NCBI GenBank assembly: GCA_947374865.1
Contig: CANCDR010000001.1
Location: forward strand, 1 to 64,000
Length of the DNA: 64,000 nucleotides
Source of the DNA: Oxalobacteraceae bacterium
Lineage (GTDB): Bacteria; Pseudomonadota; Gammaproteobacteria; Burkholderiales; Burkholderiaceae_D
Direction: 5' to 3'
Part shown: positions 1,168-11,881 of the stretch, one piece after another
Layout: each line of letters starts with the position of its first letter
Position numbering within the stretch: position 1 is the stretch's first letter
The notes under the pieces: generated by a model
Databases searched by the model: none
Told to the model about the DNA's origin: nothing
What the model saw: the letters and a program-made list of their open reading frames with translations, nothing else
Translations under genes and position numbers: made by a program

Positions 1168-1533
1168 TCACTGCAGATTGATCACCGCTTTGGTAAAACC
1201 AGTTCGCTCGATTTCCAAAATCTCCACACACATTTGTACATCTAAGTCCGTATTACCGGCCAATGCTTGACTCAATACAGTTAACAATAACTGTGACATC
1301 TGCACTTTGACAGCGGAATCCCGGCCGCTCAAGAGGGCCAATTTTAGGTGTACGAATCCACGTCCTTGCGGGGTAAGTCCGACCACGAAATCATCAAAGG
1401 CGACCGAGCGGGCTTTGACATCGCGCTCCCCAACATGACCGGCATCGACTAATGCAGCATTCATTTTATGCAAAATGGCGCTGCCCTTCAGCGCACTTAA
1501 ATTCGCAGAGTATTCCAGTGTTAAATGAGGCAT
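1168..1533 (-). CDS. 5-carboxymethyl-2-hydroxymuconate delta-isomerase-like protein
   Basis: Small 121-residue member of the tautomerase superfamily, similar in length and sequence to HpaF/CHMI. Family members use the amino-terminal proline exposed after methionine removal as catalytic base; this protein begins MPHLTLEYSANL, which keeps Pro2 and the typical first strand. In homoprotocatechuate degradation the enzyme isomerises 5-carboxymethyl-2-hydroxymuconate. No other hpa gene is in the window, so the substrate here is uncertain. It lies between two family A palindromes and reads in the same direction as the aldo/keto reductase 84 bases downstream, possibly as a two-gene unit. Confidence 0.8.
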   Translation of the reverse strand: MPHLTLEYSANLSALKGSAILHKMNAALVDAGHVGERDVKARSVAFDDFVVGLTPQGRGFVHLKLALLSGRDSAVKVQMSQLLLTVLSQALAGNTDLDVQMCVEILEIERTGFTKAVINLQ

Positions 1534-1628: not shown

Positions 1629-3551
1629 TTAGTGGTAACGCAGGGTCCACTTGATGATGAGGGGGTCTTTTAGGGTGAGTTTGGTGGCGATGCACTGGAC
1701 ATGCGTTTGCATGGGGCCGGTGGGGGCTTGGAAGTCGGGGTTGCCGTTGGTTTTTTCGACCGTGCAGCTGGACAAACCGCTGACTTCAAATGCATCGACC
1801 GTACCCTTGGCAAATTTCACCTTGTTGCCGACGATGCTGGCATCGCTGGAAAAAGAGCCGAACTCTAGACTGACTTTGTCAATCGCCTGCGGCTGCTTGG
1901 AGGTGTATTTATCGGTCCGCGTAATCACGCCGGATGCCAGGGCATAGCTGGTTTCGAGCTGTATGCGGGTGTCCTTGATCGGTCCCTTGGCACCCAGGCG
2001 CGTTAAGGCATCTTGCTGGTAATCGATGCGCTGCGTTGCACCGTCTTTCTTTACGCGGATATTTTTAATGTAGGCCGTGCCGAGCAATTCACTGCCGTCG
2101 GCCATGGTGAACTTGGGCAGTAATTGTGGATGGCCGGCGCCACTATCGGCCACACCCGCAATCATGTTGGGCGAAAACGGTAAGGGATAGTACGGGCTAT
2201 TATCGTGCTGGCTTGAACCGCCATTGACCATCAGCAGATTAAACACATGGTTCTTATCGCGAAAAGTCGCCAATGCACGGTCGTACTCGCCTTTGGCAAA
2301 CCAGGTCATTGTGAAGGGTGCGCGGGTTTTATCCAACCAGGCCTGGAAATCTTTTTTAGGCGCCTGATCAGCGAAGCCAATCTTGTTCCAGATCGCGTTG
2401 GTGTAAATAAGCTGATGGAGCAGTGAAAAATTTTCGCCTAAAATCCGGTGTTTGCCACGATAGGCATCCGTTCTGCGACCCTTGCCCCACATGTCGACCG
2501 AATGGATCGCAGGGTCATACCAAAAGTCGGCATATTTAGCGACGATGGTCGTGGCATAAGCATAGGCGTATGGTTTTTCTTCAGCCGTCAAGACGTTCAA
2601 TTCTGCCGATACAGCGAGAATTTCCAGCGCTGCGGTTTCACCGTAAGGTCCCAGACTGCGACCATAACTAAAACCATCACCGGAAGTATTGGCCATGTTC
2701 AGCGCTACTTCGGCGGCTTTACGCAGCAGGCCTTTTAATTCGGGCGTGACGGTCAGACCGGTTTCCATGAAGCGCTGGCAAATTTCAGCGATCAGCAGGA
2801 TGCTGTAACGATCGAAGCGCCCCTCCCCATCGGTCTCATCAGAAAAGCCAAATGTGCCCGAGTAGGTTTCATAATGACGCAGCATTTTATCAAGCAGAAT
2901 TTTGCTGTCCGCTTCATCTTCCCAGCCCATGAGCATACGCAGTCGGGCAATACTGAAGGCCACACCGTAATAATTTGTCGGCAGGTTGATCAGTTTGAAA
3001 TCGGGCGTGGTGACGAAGGTTTTCCAGTCGAGCTTTTTTTTCAGCAGCGCCAAGGTCTGCGGCGTGACAGCCTGCTCAAGCATGCCGGCTTTTTTCAACT
3101 GATACAGCGTCAGAATGTAATAGTAGATACCCCAGGTATGGTTATCCATGTCGATGGTCATATCGGCGATGTCGCGGTAGTCGCTCAGATACTGCGCCCG
3201 CTTCGGGTCATTGGCCGGCATGTTGAGCAGCAGATGGCCCAATCCTGCCGCAATTTTCCCCGGTAAAAATTTGTCCTTGCCATTGAAGGCTGGCTCGCCA
3301 TCGAGCGCCAGCGTGGTTTTCTCCTTACGTAATTTCTGGAAAAGATAGTCGATCTGTGGCACCAGCGCATTTTGCACGATGTGATTCATCGGTGTGGCAG
3401 CCAGCGGCGGTACATAGGCCTTTTCTGCATTTGCGGCAGCTGCCTGGGGTCCACTCAAGAAAGACAGCCCAAGGCTCAGTAAAACCATCATCAAGGATTT
3501 GTTGGAGATCCTTGTGATGCCAAAAGTTGACTGCTTTGAATGAATACCCAT
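1629..3551 (-). CDS. Exported helical protein, probable polysaccharide lyase of unassigned family
   Basis: 640 residues from the ATG at 3551, which has AAGG nine bases upstream; a longer reading to a TTG at 3587 is less likely. An amino-terminal hydrophobic stretch ending near QAAAANA looks like a Sec signal peptide, so the protein is probably periplasmic. Residues about 50-430 are helical with conserved-looking aromatic motifs (NHTWGIYYYIL, LPTNYYGVAF, DGFSYGRSLGPYGE, MWGKGRRTDAY), as in alpha/alpha-toroid lyases; the last 200 residues look beta-rich. I cannot name the family. Context (LacI regulator, sulfatases, PL6 lyase, uronate dehydrogenase) supports a role in depolymerising a uronate polysaccharide. 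Two operator-like sites and a 9-base tandem repeat lie upstream. Confidence 0.75.
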   Translation of the reverse strand: MGIHSKQSTFGITRISNKSLMMVLLSLGLSFLSGPQAAAANAEKAYVPPLAATPMNHIVQNALVPQIDYLFQKLRKEKTTLALDGEPAFNGKDKFLPGKIAAGLGHLLLNMPANDPKRAQYLSDYRDIADMTIDMDNHTWGIYYYILTLYQLKKAGMLEQAVTPQTLALLKKKLDWKTFVTTPDFKLINLPTNYYGVAFSIARLRMLMGWEDEADSKILLDKMLRHYETYSGTFGFSDETDGEGRFDRYSILLIAEICQRFMETGLTVTPELKGLLRKAAEVALNMANTSGDGFSYGRSLGPYGETAALEILAVSAELNVLTAEEKPYAYAYATTIVAKYADFWYDPAIHSVDMWGKGRRTDAYRGKHRILGENFSLLHQLIYTNAIWNKIGFADQAPKKDFQAWLDKTRAPFTMTWFAKGEYDRALATFRDKNHVFNLLMVNGGSSQHDNSPYYPLPFSPNMIAGVADSGAGHPQLLPKFTMADGSELLGTAYIKNIRVKKDGATQRIDYQQDALTRLGAKGPIKDTRIQLETSYALASGVITRTDKYTSKQPQAIDKVSLEFGSFSSDASIVGNKVKFAKGTVDAFEVSGLSSCTVEKTNGNPDFQAPTGPMQTHVQCIATKLTLKDPLIIKWTLRYH

Positions 3552-3623
3552 GGTAATTGCCTTTGATGAAGATGTCAGTGTGTGCAAGTTTAAACGCCGC
3601 TAGATGATTGCCCTGGGTGAACA

Positions 3624-3659
3624 TTGGCACTATTAGCACTATTGGCACCATTAGCACTT
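3624..3659. repeat. Four tandem 9-base units
   Basis: Four consecutive copies of TTRGCACTA with one or two changes (TTGGCACTA, TTAGCACTA, TTGGCACCA, TTAGCACTT). They begin 73 bases upstream of the ATG at 3551, between it and the operator-like site at 3675, so they probably fall in the promoter or 5' untranslated region of the lyase-like gene. Confidence 0.85.
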
Positions 3660-3674
3660 ACAGCGCATATAGGA

Positions 3675-3682
3675 AAACGTTT
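3675..3682. promoter_or_regulatory. LacI-type operator-like palindrome 1
   Basis: Core AAACGTTT within GGAAAACGTTTAAC. LacI-family proteins bind even-centred palindromes with a central CG. It lies upstream of the lyase-like gene and close to its regulator gene. The same core with nearly the same flanks occurs at 3953 and 9069. Confidence 0.6.
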
Positions 3683-3952
3683 AACTTTGAATTTTATGTT
3701 ATTTATTTCCATGCGTAAAGTCAAAGAGCAGTCTGCCGCAATAACAAAACCGCAATCTAGCAAAAGCTTGCACTCTTAATTAACCGCCCAGCCATCCGCC
3801 ATAGCTCATTACTATAAAAGGTGCTAAGCACAAATTGAGGGAAATATTTAAGCGATTCGAGTGACGGCAGGCGGAAAGCCTGACGACCATGGCATGCACA
3901 CGTACACCAGACGTCAAAGCATCGGCGCAGAATTGAAAGACGAATATAAGGA

Positions 3953-3960
3953 AAACGTTT
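3953..3960. promoter_or_regulatory. LacI-type operator-like palindrome 2
   Basis: Core AAACGTTT within AAGGAAAACGTTTATTAA, 278 bases from site 1 in the same intergenic region. Two spaced sites upstream of one gene would allow looping by a tetrameric LacI-family repressor, but most family members are dimers, so this is only a possibility. Confidence 0.55.
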
Positions 3961-4013
3961 ATTAAGTCGCCATTCGCACGCTCAACTGAGATAGCCTGCG
4001 CACTGCTATGACA

Positions 4014-5009
4014 TCAGGCATGACGGCTGATCGTCGATCCGCGCAAAATCAATTGCGGCTCAATGACGGTGAAGTCGGGCTTGGTATCGCCGTTAATGGT
4101 CGCCAGCAGTTTTTCCATGGCCGCGCCACCCATGCGTTCACTTTGCAAGTCGACGCTGGTGAGCGAAGGCGTCGTATAGCGACCGAATTCAATATTATCG
4201 AAACCCGCCACAGAGATCGCTTCAGGCAGACGAAAACCGAGCGTTTGCGCTTCTTTCATGAAGCCCAGCGCCATCAAATCGTTATAACAAATCAGCGCAT
4301 CCGGATGCTCTGAACCGAGCATGATGGCCGAGCAGCGTCGTTCTGCCTCCGATCCCGAAGGTGACGCCACATCGTAGACGGCCAGCGGTAAATCGTGCGC
4401 TGTCAGGCACTCCTTGATGCCGCCCAGACGTTCCGCATTCCGGCGCGAATTGGAAAAACCAAGATAGGCAATTTTTCGATGACCTTGGGTTACCAGATGC
4501 TGCGCCAGCATGTAACCACCGCGATGATCATCACTGGCGACGCTCGGTAGCTTGAGATGCGATAGACGGCCAAAAAAGACCAGTGGCTTGCCAATCTTGA
4601 GCATCCACTCGCTTTCCTGTTCAGGGATGCGCGAGAAAACGATCATGCCATCGACCCGGCGACTGAGTGCCTCGAGCAGCGGTCTTTCGCGACTGGGATT
4701 TTCATCCGTATCGACCAGCAAAAGCGTATAGCCGTGTTCTACGGCGATGCGATTGGCACCTTTGACGATGCTGGAAAAATGCGGATTACTGATATCGAGC
4801 ACGGCCAAACCAATTGAGCGTGTTTTACCGGTGATCATGGACTGCGCCAGCGGGTTGGAACGGTAACCCAGCTCCTCGATGACGCTTTTAATTTTGGCTT
4901 CCACGCCTGGCGAGAAGCGCTGCGCACCATTGATAAATTTCGAGATGGTGGCGGTTGAGACTTCAGCGGCAGCGGCAACATCGCGAATGGTGGGAACTTT
5001 TGTTTTCAT
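4014..5009 (-). CDS. LacI family transcriptional regulator
   Basis: 331 residues from the ATG at 5009, where the protein starts MKTKVPTIRDVA as LacI-family proteins do; a longer reading to 5078 adds 23 atypical residues. The amino-terminal helix-turn-helix (VAAAAEVSTATISKFING) and hinge helix are followed by a periplasmic-binding-protein-like effector domain with typical GLAVLDISNPHFSSI and VDGMIVFS strands. It sits among a polyuronide lyase-like gene and a sulfatase operon, all with AAACGTTT sites upstream, so it is the likely local repressor. The inducer is probably a uronate-containing sugar, which is inferred from context. Confidence 0.92.
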   Translation of the reverse strand: MKTKVPTIRDVAAAAEVSTATISKFINGAQRFSPGVEAKIKSVIEELGYRSNPLAQSMITGKTRSIGLAVLDISNPHFSSIVKGANRIAVEHGYTLLLVDTDENPSRERPLLEALSRRVDGMIVFSRIPEQESEWMLKIGKPLVFFGRLSHLKLPSVASDDHRGGYMLAQHLVTQGHRKIAYLGFSNSRRNAERLGGIKECLTAHDLPLAVYDVASPSGSEAERRCSAIMLGSEHPDALICYNDLMALGFMKEAQTLGFRLPEAISVAGFDNIEFGRYTTPSLTSVDLQSERMGGAAMEKLLATINGDTKPDFTVIEPQLILRGSTISRHA

Positions 5010-5166
5010 TAACTTGGAAAAACCTCGCCGTAATATCGCACCCGAATACATCAACTGTGCTGGCGCATTTTTTGTCAAAAAAAGGCCAACAGTTGATTAT
5101 GAGCTCACAGCTTAAGTAATTCACCGTACAAAGTAAAGCAAGGGCGCACTTTTGCCCTCTACATGC

Positions 5167-6615
5167 TTAATTTTTACGCTGTTTGGCGATGCCGTTAATC
5201 GCTCGCTCGATGTCGTCTGCATAACTTTTTTCCTTATCGAGATCACTTTGGCGGACCGACTTCCAGGCTGGCGGCTTCATTTCCTGATTCCAGGCGCTCC
5301 ATAGCGTACGCATGGCCTGCATCCGCTGCGGCTGCATTTGCGCTTGATCATGCCGCTCACCGATGTCCTGCGCCAGATTAAACAGATGCCACACATCGCC
5401 GTTCTTGAGCAGCTTCCAGTCGCCCTGACGAACAGCGCCCTGCTCGCCTGCACGCCAATACAGTGCGTCATGGATCGCGGTCGTTTTTTTACCTGTCAGC
5501 CAGGGCATGAGATCCACCCCATCCAGGGGCTTGGCCGGCAATGCGTCTGCCAGCGCCAGCACTGTGGCGGTAATATCAAAGCCCATGGCAGGTAATTCAA
5601 TCACGCCACCCTTTGGCAGCTTGCCCTTCCACTGCATCATGGCCGGCACACGGATTCCGCCCTCCAGTAACAAGGTTTTTTCACCGTTCAGAGGGCCATT
5701 GGATGATTTGTTCTGATGCGTTGGTCCGCCATTGTCACTGGCAAAAATAACCAGCGTATTGTCTTCCAGTCCCTCGGCTTTGAGTAGCGCCATAATGCGT
5801 CCTATCTGGTCATCCATGGCCGCATTCATGGCCAGATGGATGCGTCGGTCGCCATCTTGAATATGCTTGAACTGATCAAAATAGGCTTGCGTGGTCTGCA
5901 TGGGCACATGTGGCGCATTGAACGCAAGATGCAGATAAAAGGGCTGCGCTTTATTAGCCTTGATGAAGCGCATCGCCTCTTCGCCTAACTGCTCGGTCAA
6001 ATGCGCTGGCATGTCGGTCGGTGCTGTGCCACGCTGGAGTCGGAAGGTGACGGCGTCTTCACCATCCGTGGCGCTCAGACTGGTCACGCCATCCGCGCCG
6101 GTGTAAGGGTGAGTACCACCAAGGAAACCATAAAAGGTATCAAAGCCACGCAATGTCGGATGCATTTCGGGCCGATAGCCCATGTGCCATTTACCGAACA
6201 TGGCGGTTTGATAGCCCTGCTTTTTTAAACGATCCGGCAAAGTCTCCACGCCTGCAGCGAGGCCATAATTCGGCCCTGCACCGGCCGGATTAAATTCGAA
6301 TCCCAGACGGTGCTGGTAATTCCCCGTAATCATGGCCGCCCGGCTCGGCGCGCATACCGGATGATTGGCATAAAAATTCGTGAAACGAACGCCGCCGGCT
6401 GCAATGCGGTCGATATTGGGCGTGCGCGCCTCTGCGTCACCCTGCACACCGAGATCGCCATAGCCCATGTCATCGGCAAGTAAAAAAATGATATTGGGCT
6501 TGCGTTCTGGCGCTACCGCGCTGCTCTTGGCTGCCGGTGCTGACTGCGCGCTGACGTTTAAGCTGCACAGCAGTAAGCTCAACGCGAGTATTTTGCGCGA
6601 TTTATTGAAGGGCAT
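5167..6615 (-). CDS. Exported arylsulfatase-like sulfatase
   Basis: 482-residue type I (formylglycine) sulfatase. A signal peptide (residues 1-23, ending VSAQS) exports it. Metal ligands Asp48-Asp49 lie in LLADDMGYGD; Cys88 in CAPSR is the residue converted to formylglycine; GKWHMG (141-146) and ASDNGGPT supply further active-site residues. The Cys-type motif needs an FGE or anaerobic maturase, neither in this window. GAGG seven bases before the ATG supports the start. It is the last gene of a minus-strand unit behind the PL6 lyase and DUF1961 genes, so it presumably removes sulfate esters from the same polymer or its oligosaccharides. Confidence 0.93.
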   Translation of the reverse strand: MPFNKSRKILALSLLLCSLNVSAQSAPAAKSSAVAPERKPNIIFLLADDMGYGDLGVQGDAEARTPNIDRIAAGGVRFTNFYANHPVCAPSRAAMITGNYQHRLGFEFNPAGAGPNYGLAAGVETLPDRLKKQGYQTAMFGKWHMGYRPEMHPTLRGFDTFYGFLGGTHPYTGADGVTSLSATDGEDAVTFRLQRGTAPTDMPAHLTEQLGEEAMRFIKANKAQPFYLHLAFNAPHVPMQTTQAYFDQFKHIQDGDRRIHLAMNAAMDDQIGRIMALLKAEGLEDNTLVIFASDNGGPTHQNKSSNGPLNGEKTLLLEGGIRVPAMMQWKGKLPKGGVIELPAMGFDITATVLALADALPAKPLDGVDLMPWLTGKKTTAIHDALYWRAGEQGAVRQGDWKLLKNGDVWHLFNLAQDIGERHDQAQMQPQRMQAMRTLWSAWNQEMKPPAWKSVRQSDLDKEKSYADDIERAINGIAKQRKN

Positions 6616-6698: not shown

Positions 6699-7493
6699 TC
6701 AAGCTAACAGACTCACCACTTCCAAATCGCTATACAAACCTTCCAGCGGCGCCATCTGACGAAAGCCGATGCAGCCACTGCCTGCCGTTGCGTGCGGCGT
6801 CTCGTCGTCACCGCTAAAGATCAACAAATCGTTGATAAAAAAGCGTACATTGCGTGCACGCTTTTGAATCCGGATCCGATACGGCGGTGTCGCATCCTCG
6901 ACATTCGGAATCGGATCCGCGCCTTGGGCTAACAAGGTAAATCCTGGCGCGCGGCGCAAAATCGCTAAATGAAATGCCCGCTCAGATGGATAACGTCGGC
7001 GGAAATACGCGATCTGCAACGCCGACACATCCGATTTGGTGTACTGGTCATACAAACCCTGGCGCGGTTTAAGACGCGGATCAAATACGGAGACTTCCTT
7101 GCCTTCAAATAGCCCTTGGGCGGCGAAGAAAAAAACGCACAGACCGGGCTCGGCGACGGGCGTAAAATTCCAGCGGATTTCTATCTGGTCAGGGAACACC
7201 TCAGGGCACCACAGGACAAAATTGGATTCCTGTCCTAACTCAGGCGGCTTGTCATTTTTTAGACGCATGCCCAACGGACTGGCAGTCACCTGCGCCGATC
7301 CTTCCAGCCGAAAGCCGGCCAAATCGGCGGTCGACCTGAGTGGATTAAAGTACAGCCGTTTGCCGACCGATTTGGATGCTGCGGGCGTCGCCGCTTGCAC
7401 GGCCAATGGCGCGAGCGCTCCGGCACTACCCAGTAGCGATGTCAGGAGTAATGTGCGCCGCGCTGGCGAAGAAAGCTTAGGATCAGCGTCCAT
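6699..7493 (-). CDS. DUF1961 (YesU-like) exported protein
   Basis: 264 residues with a twin-arginine-like leader (ARRTLLLTSLLGSAGALAPL, residues 11-30) ending near VQAA. The body matches the DUF1961 family, whose structures are concanavalin-A-like beta sandwiches: the strand FFFAAQG (121-127), then SVFDPRLKPRQGLYDQY (135-151) and a terminal LEGLYSDLEVV. Bacillus subtilis YesU belongs to this family and lies in a rhamnogalacturonan-use cluster, so a carbohydrate-binding or cleaving role is likely though unproved. It overlaps the PL6 lyase gene by 11 bases, which implies co-transcription and coupled translation. Confidence 0.8.
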   Translation of the reverse strand: MDADPKLSSPARRTLLLTSLLGSAGALAPLAVQAATPAASKSVGKRLYFNPLRSTADLAGFRLEGSAQVTASPLGMRLKNDKPPELGQESNFVLWCPEVFPDQIEIRWNFTPVAEPGLCVFFFAAQGLFEGKEVSVFDPRLKPRQGLYDQYTKSDVSALQIAYFRRRYPSERAFHLAILRRAPGFTLLAQGADPIPNVEDATPPYRIRIQKRARNVRFFINDLLIFSGDDETPHATAGSGCIGFRQMAPLEGLYSDLEVVSLLA

Positions 7494-8874
7494 ACGATGG
7501 TCCTACGTCTTTGCGCTCAAATGGTGCTTTGGTCATGCTTGAACCTACGCCAAATTCAGACTTCAGCAGTGGCATACCCCAGGCATCAAATTGGGTCGGT
7601 GCTTCCATCGCTTTGACGGTGAGGCCAAAATTTTTCCCTGGTAAAGTCGGCCCATTACTCAGATTGCCTGAGAAGGTGATGCCCTCAACCGAACTCTTGA
7701 CGATGAACGACGACGGCGGGCAATTGATCAGCAGATTATTACGGAACAGGGAATCACGCGGCGCCTGAACGCGCTCGCCATCAGCATGTAAGCCGAAGGT
7801 GAAAGCACTGACATCATAGAAAGTATTATTTTCTACCAGCCCGCGCAGGACCGGACCATACGATGCAACGGTACGGTTTGGCACCCCGTTCATGAAGGAC
7901 AGGCCGCTGTGCATCTCCGTGCCGCGCAAACTCACGAACACATTATTGCGCACGGTTTGGTCGGTGTTGATGATGCGAACACCGCCCGCATCGGCCTCAC
8001 CGCTACCGACGAACAAATTGCCCTCCACCAGATTAAAGCGCCCCTGGCGGAAAGTGACCGTACCAGCGGAACGCAGAAAAATATTCCCCCGGATGATATT
8101 GCCCCAGGTTTTAATCGAAATAATTTCCAGCTCACCACTGCAGCCTTCGAACAGATTATTTTCTACCAGCGTCGCCGACGTCAGGGTTGAAAAAGCCCCG
8201 GTACCAATACGAATCGATTCCGCACCATTGGCGTTAAAGGGTGCCCGCGGCCCGAAATAATTGTGATCGATGCTGTGATGATTTTCATCGCTATTGAGGA
8301 GTTCGAAGCGCACGGCGACGGTGACGCCCTTATTGGTCTTTCCCTCGAAGTGACAATGATCGACGCGGTTATGTCGGCCATGTAAATTGACCCAACATCC
8401 ATCAGTCGTTTTGTCGGGCTCATTGAAATTGAGAATCGTGCATTCAGTGACGCGGCAGTGATTCGATGGTGCGGACTTTTTGCCACCAGCGAAACTGATT
8501 ACTTCGCTATCAGGTGAATAGCCATCGCGGAAAACCAGCCCGCTCACGACCAGGTGCTCACCGATGATGTTGAGCTTGGATTTTCCATTCAAAAGAACCT
8601 GTCCTGCAGTCTGGGCTGCCAGGGTAATCGGCGTACCGGGCAATCCCTGACCGGCGAACACGATCTGCGTATCCTTCCAGCTGCCATTGGCCATGACAAT
8701 GGTATCGCCGGGACGGGCTTTGGCGATCGCATTTTCCAGCTCAGCAGGCGTGCGCACGAAAGTTCCGGCCAATACGCCCGCCGCCTGGGAAGGATTGACC
8801 CGACTGAGCAGGGCGCCAGAAACACCGGCAAACATGGCGAGGGAAATGGCACGGCGGGAAATCGTAGGAGTCAT
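7483..8874 (-). CDS. PL6-family polysaccharide lyase (alginate lyase/chondroitinase-B fold)
   Basis: 463-residue exported right-handed beta-helix lyase. The leader SRRAISLAMFAGVSGALLS is twin-arginine-like. The repeated N-x-hydrophobic coils (NNLFEGC, GNIFLRS, GNLFVGS, NNVFVS) mark the helix. Calcium-site acids Glu248 and Glu250, catalytic base Lys255 (in GELEIISIKT) and Arg276 (in FRQGR) match the conserved PL6 set. PL6 enzymes cleave alginate or dermatan sulfate at uronate linkages by beta-elimination. The neighbouring sulfatases favour a sulfated polymer here, but specificity cannot be read from sequence. First gene of the unit PL6-DUF1961-sulfatase, divergent from the uronate dehydrogenase gene, with an operator-like site between them. 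Confidence 0.9.
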   Translation of the reverse strand: MTPTISRRAISLAMFAGVSGALLSRVNPSQAAGVLAGTFVRTPAELENAIAKARPGDTIVMANGSWKDTQIVFAGQGLPGTPITLAAQTAGQVLLNGKSKLNIIGEHLVVSGLVFRDGYSPDSEVISFAGGKKSAPSNHCRVTECTILNFNEPDKTTDGCWVNLHGRHNRVDHCHFEGKTNKGVTVAVRFELLNSDENHHSIDHNYFGPRAPFNANGAESIRIGTGAFSTLTSATLVENNLFEGCSGELEIISIKTWGNIIRGNIFLRSAGTVTFRQGRFNLVEGNLFVGSGEADAGGVRIINTDQTVRNNVFVSLRGTEMHSGLSFMNGVPNRTVASYGPVLRGLVENNTFYDVSAFTFGLHADGERVQAPRDSLFRNNLLINCPPSSFIVKSSVEGITFSGNLSNGPTLPGKNFGLTVKAMEAPTQFDAWGMPLLKSEFGVGSSMTKAPFERKDVGPSYGR

Positions 8875-9415
8875 GTTAGAAAGTGTCTTTCATCTAGTTA
8901 AAAATCCCCGCAGGCTCGGAGCAGGGACCGCATGGCATTACTACCGCCCTACACACAATTTGCGCCAGTTGGACCAGCAGGACGGGTTGAACATTATTGC
9001 TGTTAATTTTTGACGTTTTTTATATCGCACTCATGGAAAGTAAGCCTTTTACCTGAGGAAAAAGAAGAAAACGTTTAACCATAATCGTACATTAAAATTA
9101 TATTTACGTACTTAAATTTTATGCATTAATTTAATTCTTTACATTGAAGCGATGCGTGTTTTCACTAAGTAATTATCAAAATCGTCGAATCAAATGCGAC
9201 GAAATAGGCGCATTTTTATAGCAAGGTTTTTGAAATGCCCTGCGTTTGTCACCCTCCACCTTAATCAATCGCTCCTTACCATCAAATAAAAAGTTGCCTT
9301 AACACTATAGAAATCGCTATACTTGATCAATCGTTTAACTAGCCTGGTCATCACAGCTACCGCAGGCGCGATGCACGACTTCTTAAATCTACTCACTTTA
9401 CCTTTTGATACCAAC
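8875..9415. promoter_or_regulatory. Divergent promoter region of the polyuronide locus
   Basis: This 541-base A+T-rich gap separates the minus-strand PL6 unit from the plus-strand uronate dehydrogenase unit. It contains one AAACGTTT palindrome (9069-9076) and no convincing gene. Both promoters should lie here; I could not fix their -10 and -35 boxes by eye. Confidence 0.65.
9069..9076. promoter_or_regulatory. LacI-type operator-like palindrome 3
   Basis: Core AAACGTTT within GAAGAAAACGTTTAACC, sharing flanks with the sites at 3675 and 3953. It is placed between the two divergent units and could control both. Confidence 0.6.
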
Positions 9416-10234
9416 ATGACTTCTTCTGTTACCAACAAGCCCTTCAAGCGACTACTTCTCACCGGAGCTGCAGGTGGCCTGGGTCGCGTTCTACGTGAAC
9501 GCATCAAGCCGTGGGCGGAGATTGTTCGACTGAGCGACATGAGCGACATGGGGTCTGCGTCTGAGGGCGAAGAAATCGTCCGCTGCGATCTGGCCGATAA
9601 AGCGGCCGTGCTCGATTTGCTTGAGGGCGTGGATGCGGTTTTACATTTTGGTGGTATCTCGGTCGAGGAGCGTTTTGAGCCCATCATGCAGGCCAATATT
9701 CTTGGACTAGCCAATCTGTATGAGGCGGTACACAAGAGCGGCGTCAAGCGGGTTCTTTATGCGAGCTCGAATCACGTGAATGGCTACTATCCGGTGACGC
9801 AATTAGTCGACGCCGATATGCCGATGCGGCCAGATGGCTTTTACGGTATCAGTAAATGTTTTGGTGAAGCGCTGTCGCGTTTTTACTTCGACCGTTTTGG
9901 TATTGAGACGGTGTGTATGCGCATCGGTTCGTGCTTTCCCGAGCCGCTGAACGCACGCATGATGAAGACTTTTCTGAGCTATAACGATCTTATGGAGTTG
10001 ATCCGCTGCGCTTTATTTACGCCGCGCGTAGGCCATACGATCATCTTTGGCGTATCCGATAATGATGCATGCTGGGTCGACAACAGTCAGGCGGCGCATC
10101 TGGGATATCGTCCCAAGGATAGCTCAAGACAATTCGCCGATCGGTTTCCTGATACGGCAGAACGCCCGCCCATGGATGATCCAGCAACGACGTTTCAGGG
10201 CGGACCTTTCGTGGTCGCCGGTCCAAAATATTAA
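9416..10234 (+). CDS. udh: NAD-dependent uronate dehydrogenase
   Basis: 272 residues from the ATG at 9416; in-frame upstream starts (9371, 9323) would add residues that known Udh proteins lack. The sequence follows Agrobacterium Udh closely: TGAAGGLGR Rossmann motif (16-24), HFGGISVEE, SSNHVNGYYP, catalytic Tyr143 and Lys147 in YGISKCFGE, then RIGSCFPEP and NDACWVDNS. Udh oxidises D-glucuronate or D-galacturonate to the aldarolactone, the first step of the oxidative uronate route. It would consume monosaccharides released by the neighbouring lyases and sulfatases. No downstream aldarate genes are in the window. A hairpin separates it from the following sulfatase gene. Confidence 0.92.
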   Translation: MTSSVTNKPFKRLLLTGAAGGLGRVLRERIKPWAEIVRLSDMSDMGSASEGEEIVRCDLADKAAVLDLLEGVDAVLHFGGISVEERFEPIMQANILGLANLYEAVHKSGVKRVLYASSNHVNGYYPVTQLVDADMPMRPDGFYGISKCFGEALSRFYFDRFGIETVCMRIGSCFPEPLNARMMKTFLSYNDLMELIRCALFTPRVGHTIIFGVSDNDACWVDNSQAAHLGYRPKDSSRQFADRFPDTAERPPMDDPATTFQGGPFVVAGPKY

Positions 10235-10252
10235 ACGCGGCGATCTAGCAGG

Positions 10253-10294
10253 ACCAAATTTACCGTTGACTTAATCGACATGGTGAAATTTGGT
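10253..10294 (+). other. Hairpin between udh and sulfatase gene
   Basis: ACCAAATTT at 10253-10261 pairs with AAATTTGGT at 10286-10294, and inner ACC/GGT and GTTGAC-like segments can extend the stem. No clean U-tract follows. It lies in the udh to sulfatase intergenic space and may limit read-through or protect the udh transcript. Confidence 0.4.
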
Positions 10295-10345
10295 ATCTCG
10301 TTTTCCTCAACCTTGTACACAGTCCTGTATTACAAAGGGATCACC

Positions 10346-11881
10346 ATGAAAAAACTTACCTGCCTGCTCGCTATCCTGTCGATCACCTTGGGCGCGTCGA
10401 CCCAGGCGGCGGACCGTCCGAATATTCTTTTCATTGCAGTCGACGATTTACGGCCGGAACTCGGCGTGTATGGTCAAAAGCATATCAAGAGTCCCAATAT
10501 TGATGCGCTGGCCCGCACAGGCGTGACGTTTGATCGGGCTTATTGTCAGCAGGCGGTATGCTCCCCTACCCGTTCGAGTCTCATGACTGGCACGCGGCCG
10601 GACACCACCAAGGTATGGGATCTAGTGACACATTTCCGTGTTGCGCTGCCTGACGTGGTCACACTGAGCCAGCACTTTAAACAAAATGGTTATTTCGTCC
10701 AAGGGATGGGGAAGCTCTATCACGGTGGTCTCAATGACGAACCTAGCTGGTCTGTCGCCTGGCAGTCGCCCAAGGCACCAACCTATGCTTTAGCAGAAAA
10801 CATTGCGCTCAATGCGCGCGTTTTTGAAGAAGAGCCTGACGATGTGCTCGAACCCAAAGCCAAGAGCGGAAATGCGCTAAAAGCGGCCCAAGCCGCTGGC
10901 GAGCGACGTCGTTGGCGCGGCCCGGCATTTGAAGGTGCGGATGTGCCAGATAATTATTTCACCGACGGCAAAGTGGCTGAACTGGCAGTCGAAACATTGG
11001 GCACCTTGAGCAAGAAAAAAGAACCCTTCTTTCTCGCCATCGGCTTCATCAAACCGCATTTGCCGTTCGTCGCTCCGAAGAAGTACTGGGACATGTATGA
11101 TCCGGCCAAAATTGTGCTGGCGCCGAATAAATTCTTTCCGATCGATGCGCCGGCCTACGCTATTCGTAAAGAGGGTAGCGAGCTGGGTAACTACTATGGC
11201 ATTCCCGATGGTTCAGTACCGGACGACGTAGCGCGTCAGCTCAAGCATGGCTATTTTTCAGCGATCAGCTATATGGATGCGCAGTTGGGTAAGGTCATGG
11301 CCGAATTGGATCGGCTTGATTTACGCAAAAATACCATCGTTATTTTATGGGGCGATCATGGCTGGAAACTGGGGGAGCATGACGCTTGGGCCAAGCATTC
11401 CAATACCGAAAATGATACCAATGTTCCGCTTATCATTTCTGTACCGGGCATGAAGAACGCCAACGCACATACAAATGCCCTGGTTGAATTTGTCGACATC
11501 TATCCGAGTCTGAGTGAGCTGGCCGGACTCCCCTTACCCAAGCATTTGGAGGGCACCAGCTTCAAGCCGCTGCTGGATAATCTACAGCGGCCATGGAAGC
11601 AGGCTGCGTTCAGTCAGTATCATCGAAATGTGGCCGAAACGCATTCCGAAGCCTTGATGGGCTACACCATGCGCACCGATCGCTATCGTTTCACAGTCTG
11701 GGTAGCGCGCAATAATCACGACAAAGTCGATGCCATCGAACTCTACGATCATCAGACAGATCCGCAAGAGAATAGAAACATCGCCAAACTCCCGGCTAAC
11801 GCCGCTTTAGTCGCAAAACTCATGGCACAGTGGCGCGGTGGCTGGCAGGCTGCTGTACCGAAAAATACCGCAGCGCGTTAA
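10346..11881 (+). CDS. Exported iduronate-2-sulfatase-like sulfatase
   Basis: 511 residues from the ATG at 10346, preceded by AAAGGGA at good spacing and followed by a clear signal peptide (MKKLTCLLAILSITLGAS...AA). An upstream in-frame ATG at 10280 is less likely. It is a formylglycine sulfatase of the iduronate-2-sulfatase subgroup: Asp33-Asp34 in AVDDLRPELG, Cys72 in CSPTR, GKLYH near 119 and WGDHGWKLGEH. Members act on 2-O-sulfated uronates, but also on other sulfated sugars. It follows udh in the same direction and ends 25 bases before a family A palindrome, which may serve as its terminator. Confidence 0.92.
   Translation: MKKLTCLLAILSITLGASTQAADRPNILFIAVDDLRPELGVYGQKHIKSPNIDALARTGVTFDRAYCQQAVCSPTRSSLMTGTRPDTTKVWDLVTHFRVALPDVVTLSQHFKQNGYFVQGMGKLYHGGLNDEPSWSVAWQSPKAPTYALAENIALNARVFEEEPDDVLEPKAKSGNALKAAQAAGERRRWRGPAFEGADVPDNYFTDGKVAELAVETLGTLSKKKEPFFLAIGFIKPHLPFVAPKKYWDMYDPAKIVLAPNKFFPIDAPAYAIRKEGSELGNYYGIPDGSVPDDVARQLKHGYFSAISYMDAQLGKVMAELDRLDLRKNTIVILWGDHGWKLGEHDAWAKHSNTENDTNVPLIISVPGMKNANAHTNALVEFVDIYPSLSELAGLPLPKHLEGTSFKPLLDNLQRPWKQAAFSQYHRNVAETHSEALMGYTMRTDRYRFTVWVARNNHDKVDAIELYDHQTDPQENRNIAKLPANAALVAKLMAQWRGGWQAAVPKNTAAR

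Follow-up and report, generated by a model that had tools for sequence, protein, structure and literature searches.

The window analyzed here, a 64,000-nucleotide stretch of an Oxalobacteraceae genome, encodes on its minus strand an apparently exported protein of 640 residues (P0001; positions 1629-3551, with the ATG at 3551 and the stop codon at 1629-1631), which is a candidate lyase by its ORF, predicted structure and residue conservation. The ORF agrees with the original prediction and contains each of the motifs given there (NHTWGIYYYIL, LPTNYYGVAF and DGFSYGRSLGPYGE), and export is suggested by a signal-peptide-like N-terminus (about residues 1-40, judged by eye). The host genome contains one P0001-type match. 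Judged from its sequence P0001 is a real gene, because homologues without internal stops recur in kin genomes (4 of 148; 5 of 399 at the level of the order and 3 of 398 at that of the phylum, the own genome being counted each time), in 5 plasmid records and at 174 places in genome contigs.

The genes around P0001 form the polyuronide locus that had been proposed from the DNA. Directly downstream lies an ORF for a CHMI-type tautomerase (1168-1533, minus strand; Pfam), which may act on unsaturated uronate products. On the other side, and likewise on the minus strand, lie a LacI-family regulator (4014-5078; Pfam and homologue loci), which is a conserved neighbor, a sulfatase (5167-6615; Pfam), a DUF1961 protein (6699-7493; ORF list and Pfam) and a PL6-type lyase (7483-8874; Pfam Chondroitinas_B, with AlyGC, 5gkd, as the closest PDB sequence), the last two genes overlapping by 11 bases. 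Genes for a uronate dehydrogenase (9323-10234; PDB sequence 3rft, E 4.8e-87) and a second sulfatase (10280-11881; Pfam) follow on the plus strand. The PL6-type lyase is a likely partner of P0001. KduI (PF04962) was considered as the next pathway step and set aside, there being no match in the host genome. The DUF1961 protein is worth testing as a polyuronide enzyme.

Operator-like sites and a putative regulon

P0001 has its own pair of operator-like sites, as the original prediction had it. A pattern search located AAACGTTTTC upstream of P0001 (3673-3682, minus strand) and again in the LacI-P0001 intergenic region (3951-3960, minus strand), while a third site separates the PL6 gene from the divergently transcribed uronate dehydrogenase gene (9067-9076, minus strand). 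These three sites compare with 0.23 expected, a count of three being reached in 1 of 100 shuffles. A fuller operator pattern occurs five times in the 3.27-Mb host genome (reversed control, two), and four of these occurrences fall at P0001 (two), at the PL6/uronate dehydrogenase pair (one) and at a PL38-like lyase/sulfatase/TonB receptor group (one). The fifth (C2:174610) lies, by eye, inside phosphate-transport genes and was taken as chance. In the PL38-like group (host contig 27, locus L128, 7442-13423) the operator sits between the divergent PL38-like lyase and sulfatase genes, with the TonB receptor beyond, which suggests a second locus of the regulon and a sulfated polyuronide as substrate. 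The putative LacI-type operator would in this way link P0001 to both the PL6 and the PL38-like lyase in this host. Across homologue loci AAACGTTT occurs near the start of the P0001-family gene in 22 of the 30 that contain the LacI cluster and in 15 of the other 55, and in loci with LacI its density is 2.5 per kb near the gene start versus 0.12 per kb across whole loci.

PL38-like lyases (PF05426; PDB 3nfv, 8bdq) are uronate lyases by family and recur as neighbors of P0001, with the operator in common; they belong to another family, however, and consist of the barrel only, without a β-domain, according to Table 3 of PMC12088678. Two further PF05426 lyase genes of the host (C2:51463-52272 and C25:233-1060) have no operator pattern nearby.

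A sequence family outside the profiles searched

The original prediction could not match P0001 to a familiar polysaccharide lyase family, and the collections searched gave no such match either. No family was found in Pfam (E up to 10), and nothing usable in NCBIfam and PHROGs (E up to 1) or among PDB sequences (single-sequence phmmer and the A1 profile); nor did Pfam, NCBIfam or PDB sequences return a confident match to a non-lyase family, which would have spoken against a lyase. PDB sequence matches to an antibody chain (E 0.97) and a cysteine desulfurase (E 0.71) were dismissed as chance, as was a BRK domain (E 0.0093, one member), the top Pfam match among 49 family members. PF10022 is not among the nine Pfam families matched by any of these 49 members, and none was matched by P0001 itself. 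PL33 PDB sequences were retrieved neither with P0001 (phmmer) nor with the A1 profile at E up to 10, and solved members of PL35, PL8, PL12, PL15, PL17, PL21 and PL39 show no sequence similarity to P0001 (PDB sequences and Pfam). Comparison of the family with DUF2264 and with PL17/DUF4962-type proteins by hhalign and BLASTP gave nothing significant, the hhalign probability being 1.3 for DUF2264, and hhalign found no sequence link to three PL17/DUF4962-type proteins. The best hhalign links, to GH88 (probability 54 and 44, over 64-74 columns), are weak and were not accepted as homology.

Relatives were collected with the A1 profile in the scan of genome contigs that gave the 174 places; the best 80 of these were used, and all their titles name Proteobacteria. 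A scan of genome contigs with the P0001 sequence alone gave 12 pattern matches, none of them a relative, and a phage origin was rejected after 11 pattern matches in viral contigs likewise contained no relative. Hosts include Duganella, Massilia, Sphingomonas, Caulobacter, Halomonas and Burkholderia-type bacteria. In one annotated record the homologue is called a "hypothetical protein" and has a gene of the alginate lyase family on one side and a GH88 gene on the other. No publication on the family appeared among the papers that literature searches listed, which does not prove its absence from print.

Predicted structure of P0001

The AlphaFold2 model of P0001 (49 sequences; mean pLDDT 89.9, pTM 0.88) confirms with confidence the helical domain and β-rich end foreseen for the protein, and divides it into a helical toroid (residues 55-393) and a C-terminal antiparallel β-sandwich beginning at residue 413 and extending to 639. 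The twelve main helices are read as an (α/α)6 toroid, in which the inner helices start near residues 96, 139, 194, 248, 302 and 367. In a Foldseek search of the PDB with the whole model, rows 1-37 among the best 50 matches listed are polysaccharide lyases spanning both domains, in keeping with the α/α-toroid lyase plan of the original prediction. The best match is PL33 BT4410 (E 3.5e-12, 13% identity), followed by PL35, PL8, PL12, PL17 and PL39, while the toroid-only BcGDH and GH154 structures come after the lyases (E about 2e-6 to 4e-5, among the best 50 listed). VIA rows for the whole model mainly cover residues 51-395, that is, the toroid, and are headed by two tied matches, GH154 8oi4 (Z 21.6, rmsd 4.2, 342 aligned) and BcGDH 9o4u (Z 21.3, rmsd 4.4, 344 aligned); PL15, PL17 and PL33 are absent among the best 50 VIA matches listed, which excludes nothing.

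Modeled alone, the β-domain reaches a pLDDT of 94.7. Foldseek again gives PL33 as its best match, with non-lyases (an NDH subunit, or sandwiches that belong to other enzymes) making up 10 of the 20 matches at E up to 0.001. In VIA rows 1-25 are lyases of PL12, PL33, PL15, PL17, PL21, PL35 and PL39, led by PL12 HepC (Z 15.2, rmsd 3.1, 197 aligned); row 26, an NDH subunit (Z 13.3), is tied with the lower lyase rows (PL17, PL35), and mutarotases appear at Z 11.5-12.0. The same comparison includes the epimerase DS-epi1 (6hzn; Z 12.5, rmsd 3.7, 207 aligned). P0001 could on this ground be a C5-uronate epimerase of DS-epi1 type with the same fold and Tyr, and a catalytic apparatus shared by such epimerases and lyases is described in PMC11848413. 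The locus and regulon are catabolic, however, and we consider an epimerase extremely improbable.

On the model, the fold of P0001 is that of the polysaccharide lyases in which a toroid is followed by a C-terminal antiparallel β-sandwich, in that order, as also found in PL33 (BT4410, PDB 8r6z), PL12, PL15, PL17, PL21, PL35 and PL39. What would be new is the sequence family; the structural class is known, and this is not a new kind of system.

Candidate active site

Conservation was counted over 87 aligned rows (P0001 and 86 homologues), and the smaller alignment used for the model, A2, has 49 rows chosen manually among the homologues collected up to that stage, with plasmid rows excluded. N193, Y249, R298, Y303 and Y454 are present in 87 of 87 rows, and H449 in 77 of 87. 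Many invariant polar residues cluster at the inner-helix starts of the model. The original prediction had looked to an Asn/His/Tyr/Arg cluster in a catalytic cleft as support for lyase action: its Asn, Tyr and Arg stand in every row and its His in the 77 only, and by spacing and helix position these residues may meet in one cleft. The predicted lyase fold and the conserved polar residues at the inner-helix starts would be compatible with a catalytic cleft.

The Asn193-Tyr249 spacing of 56 falls within the range of 53-57 given for PL12, PL17, PL35 and PL39 (59 in PL8 and 63 in PL23; PMC12088678), and PL33, with its catalytic set N238/Y291 and H444, has a spacing of 53 (PMC11848413). Table 4 of PMC12088678 lists the corresponding Asn/Tyr/His residues as N192/Y246/H401 in PL35, N240/Y294/H424 in PL12, N201/Y258/H413 in PL17 and N186/Y239/H405 in PL39. 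By spacing and helix start, without superposition, N193 and Y249 take the places of the Asn neutralizer and Tyr acid/base that mark the class. Counted from the VIA alignment starts, His449 comes at position 39 of the β-domain, though it is present in 77 of 87 rows only. With the same starts and the numbering of PMC12088678 the catalytic His lies at β-domain residue 36-42 in HepC, Atu3025, Alg17c, Dp0100, heparinase II and GAGases II and VII; PL33, whose numbering can be read in two ways, gives 33 or 41. Asn193, Tyr249 and His449 of the model therefore appear to fall about where toroid lyases carry their Asn/Tyr/His triad, as mapped by spacing and helix position, not by superposition. PL33-group lyases resemble P0001 in the toroid Asn and Tyr at similar spacing and perhaps in a His early in the β-domain, but have no detectable sequence similarity to it, and the P0001 family differs in a GRS..Y motif at inner helix 10 and in a His that is not universal. 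The Tyr249-His449 spacing is also long (200 versus 130-166 in known families).

R298 and Y303 lie in this GRS..Y motif, which, like a D.Y motif, resembles BcGDH, where Y229, R285 and Y289 are proposed to be catalytic (PMC12269599). BcGDH and the former GH154 proteins (DUF2264; PDB 9o4u, 9nwf, 8oi4) provide the closest toroid to P0001 and share with its family both motifs and GH88/105 as a frequent neighbor. P0001 might accordingly be a non-reducing-end uronate 4,5-dehydratase like BcGDH, priming terminal glucuronate for GH88/GH105, with Tyr249 as base, Arg298 as stabilizer and Tyr303 as acid in the elimination of water from the terminal glucuronate. Its Tyr-to-Arg spacing of 49 is close to the 50 of the DUF2264 protein L095, whereas BcGDH has 56 (no residue-level superposition), and its Arg-Tyr spacing is 5 versus 4 in BcGDH and L095. 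No counterpart of BcGDH E74/R78 was recognized in P0001, neither PF10022 nor hhalign detects it as a member of the BcGDH/former GH154 group, and P0001 adds a lyase-like β-domain with His449 that BcGDH lacks, yet the DUF2264 proteins L095 and L096 (622 and 616 aa) do have a C-terminal part. In another dehydratase, the ulvan dehydratase P29_PDnc, the catalysis proposed in PMC8511951 is by Asp/Lys.

Acidic residues are conserved as well, D247, D362 and E373 being the same in every row of A2. This would suit a glycoside hydrolase (glucuronidase) whose product, saturated glucuronate, passes to uronate dehydrogenase or mannonate dehydratase, one or the other of which stands beside the gene; toroids are widespread among hydrolases, including GH88, to which the weak hhalign links also point. 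The lyases that fill the top of the Foldseek list match over both domains, however, and an Asn/Tyr/His set suits elimination, making a hydrolase very unlikely in our judgment.

Neighbors in 85 homologue loci

Neighbors were counted over 85 loci, excluding the own locus, after L001-L004, L042, L067, L070, L090 and L091 had been dropped (own copy, duplicates, short pieces or loci judged near-identical). Genes were chosen by a GC-codon heuristic in place of a gene caller, and each cluster was named after a single representative; some loci do not reach the requested flank length (L092-L094, under 6 kb), and partners may be missed there. A TonB receptor is found in 62 of 85 loci, GH88/105 in 44, uronate dehydrogenase in 34, a PL38/PL5-type lyase in 32, GH3 in 24, GH2 in 22 and mannonate dehydratase in 19. 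LacI is present as a cluster in 30 loci, a number that an HMM search at E up to 1e-15 raises to 35. The CHMI tautomerase is found in 13 loci by HMM; cluster 15 comprises 12 loci, and in 10 of them this Pfam family lies immediately downstream. PL6 occurs in one locus (L038), and 23 of 85 loci have neither an endolyase, GH88/105 nor uronate dehydrogenase or mannonate dehydratase (Udh/ManD). By our estimate, from 106 matches in 48 few-Mb genomes, GH88 would occur by chance in about 1% of 22-kb stretches. Mannonate arises from D-glucuronate, so the mannonate dehydratase neighbors indicate that the substrate probably contains D-glucuronate; in this host it is perhaps sulfated.

The frequent GH88/105 neighbors and the adjacent enzymes for saturated glucuronate are what a BcGDH-like dehydratase would lead one to expect. 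Against it, PF07470 (GH88/105) has no match in the host genome (93.5% complete) and, among 48 other carrier genomes, is over the cut-off in 31 and not over it in 17. Since dehydration of the BcGDH type needs GH88/105 to free the sugar, this absence from the host, together with the lyase-type β-domain, favors chain cleavage, and we regard the dehydratase as unlikely.

Proposed activity of P0001

P0001 is probably a β-eliminating lyase that founds a new family and acts on glucuronate-rich oligouronides, a reading that rests on the predicted structure and in which "new" refers to Pfam, NCBIfam and PDB sequences, CAZy families without a solved structure aside. In the proposed mechanism the uronate carboxylate would be bound in the toroid and neutralized by Asn193, aided by Arg298 and other Arg/Lys residues at helix starts; Tyr249, activated by His449 of the β-domain, would abstract the proton from C5; and protonation of the O4 leaving group, by Tyr249 or Tyr303, would yield a 4,5-unsaturated uronate. 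Endolyases of the PL6, PL38-like and PL5-like types would generate oligouronides that P0001 trims, comparable to PL15/PL17 on alginate. Exolytic trimming seems likelier than endo action because the locus or regulon includes candidate endolyases from other families (PL6, PL38-like). The suggestion that P0001 is the main depolymerizing enzyme has thereby become less certain: with PL6 nearby and the PL38-like lyase under the same operator, it may instead be an oligosaccharide trimmer.

Several observations stand against the lyase. The toroid taken alone is closest to GH154-type proteins and the GRS..Y motif resembles a dehydratase; GH88 is frequent, His449 is absent in 10 of 87 rows and far from Tyr249, and the 23 loci noted above are without partners. 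Unrelated sandwiches come near the lyases in the β-domain searches, and hhalign found no link to the three PL17/DUF4962-type proteins compared. Against a pure exolyase on a homopolymer, the Udh and mannonate dehydratase neighbors handle saturated glucuronate, which such an enzyme would not release.

A more far-reaching proposal, which we advance tentatively and hold to be rather doubtful, is that the new PL family combines the toroid-lyase Asn/Tyr/His triad with the GH154-type Arg/Tyr pair in one site, bridging in evolution the enzymes that cut chains and those that eliminate water, and that it alone converts glucuronate oligomers to unsaturated monomers in Proteobacteria without GH88/105. If the active site is indeed mixed, chain cutting versus water removal could be tested in one scaffold through a few residue changes. 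Naming the family would supply a missing piece of polyuronide breakdown in the carrier bacteria, and the number of PL families could grow by one.

The rows without His449 include Burkholderia-type homologues of about 34-37% identity (plasmid loci L006-L009, and L092 and L093), which possibly have a different specificity; those of L006-L009 have a lipoprotein-like N-terminus (by eye). The Roseateles MAG locus L054 carries two family copies (2264-4135 and 10001-11752) together with two LacI genes and a TonB receptor.
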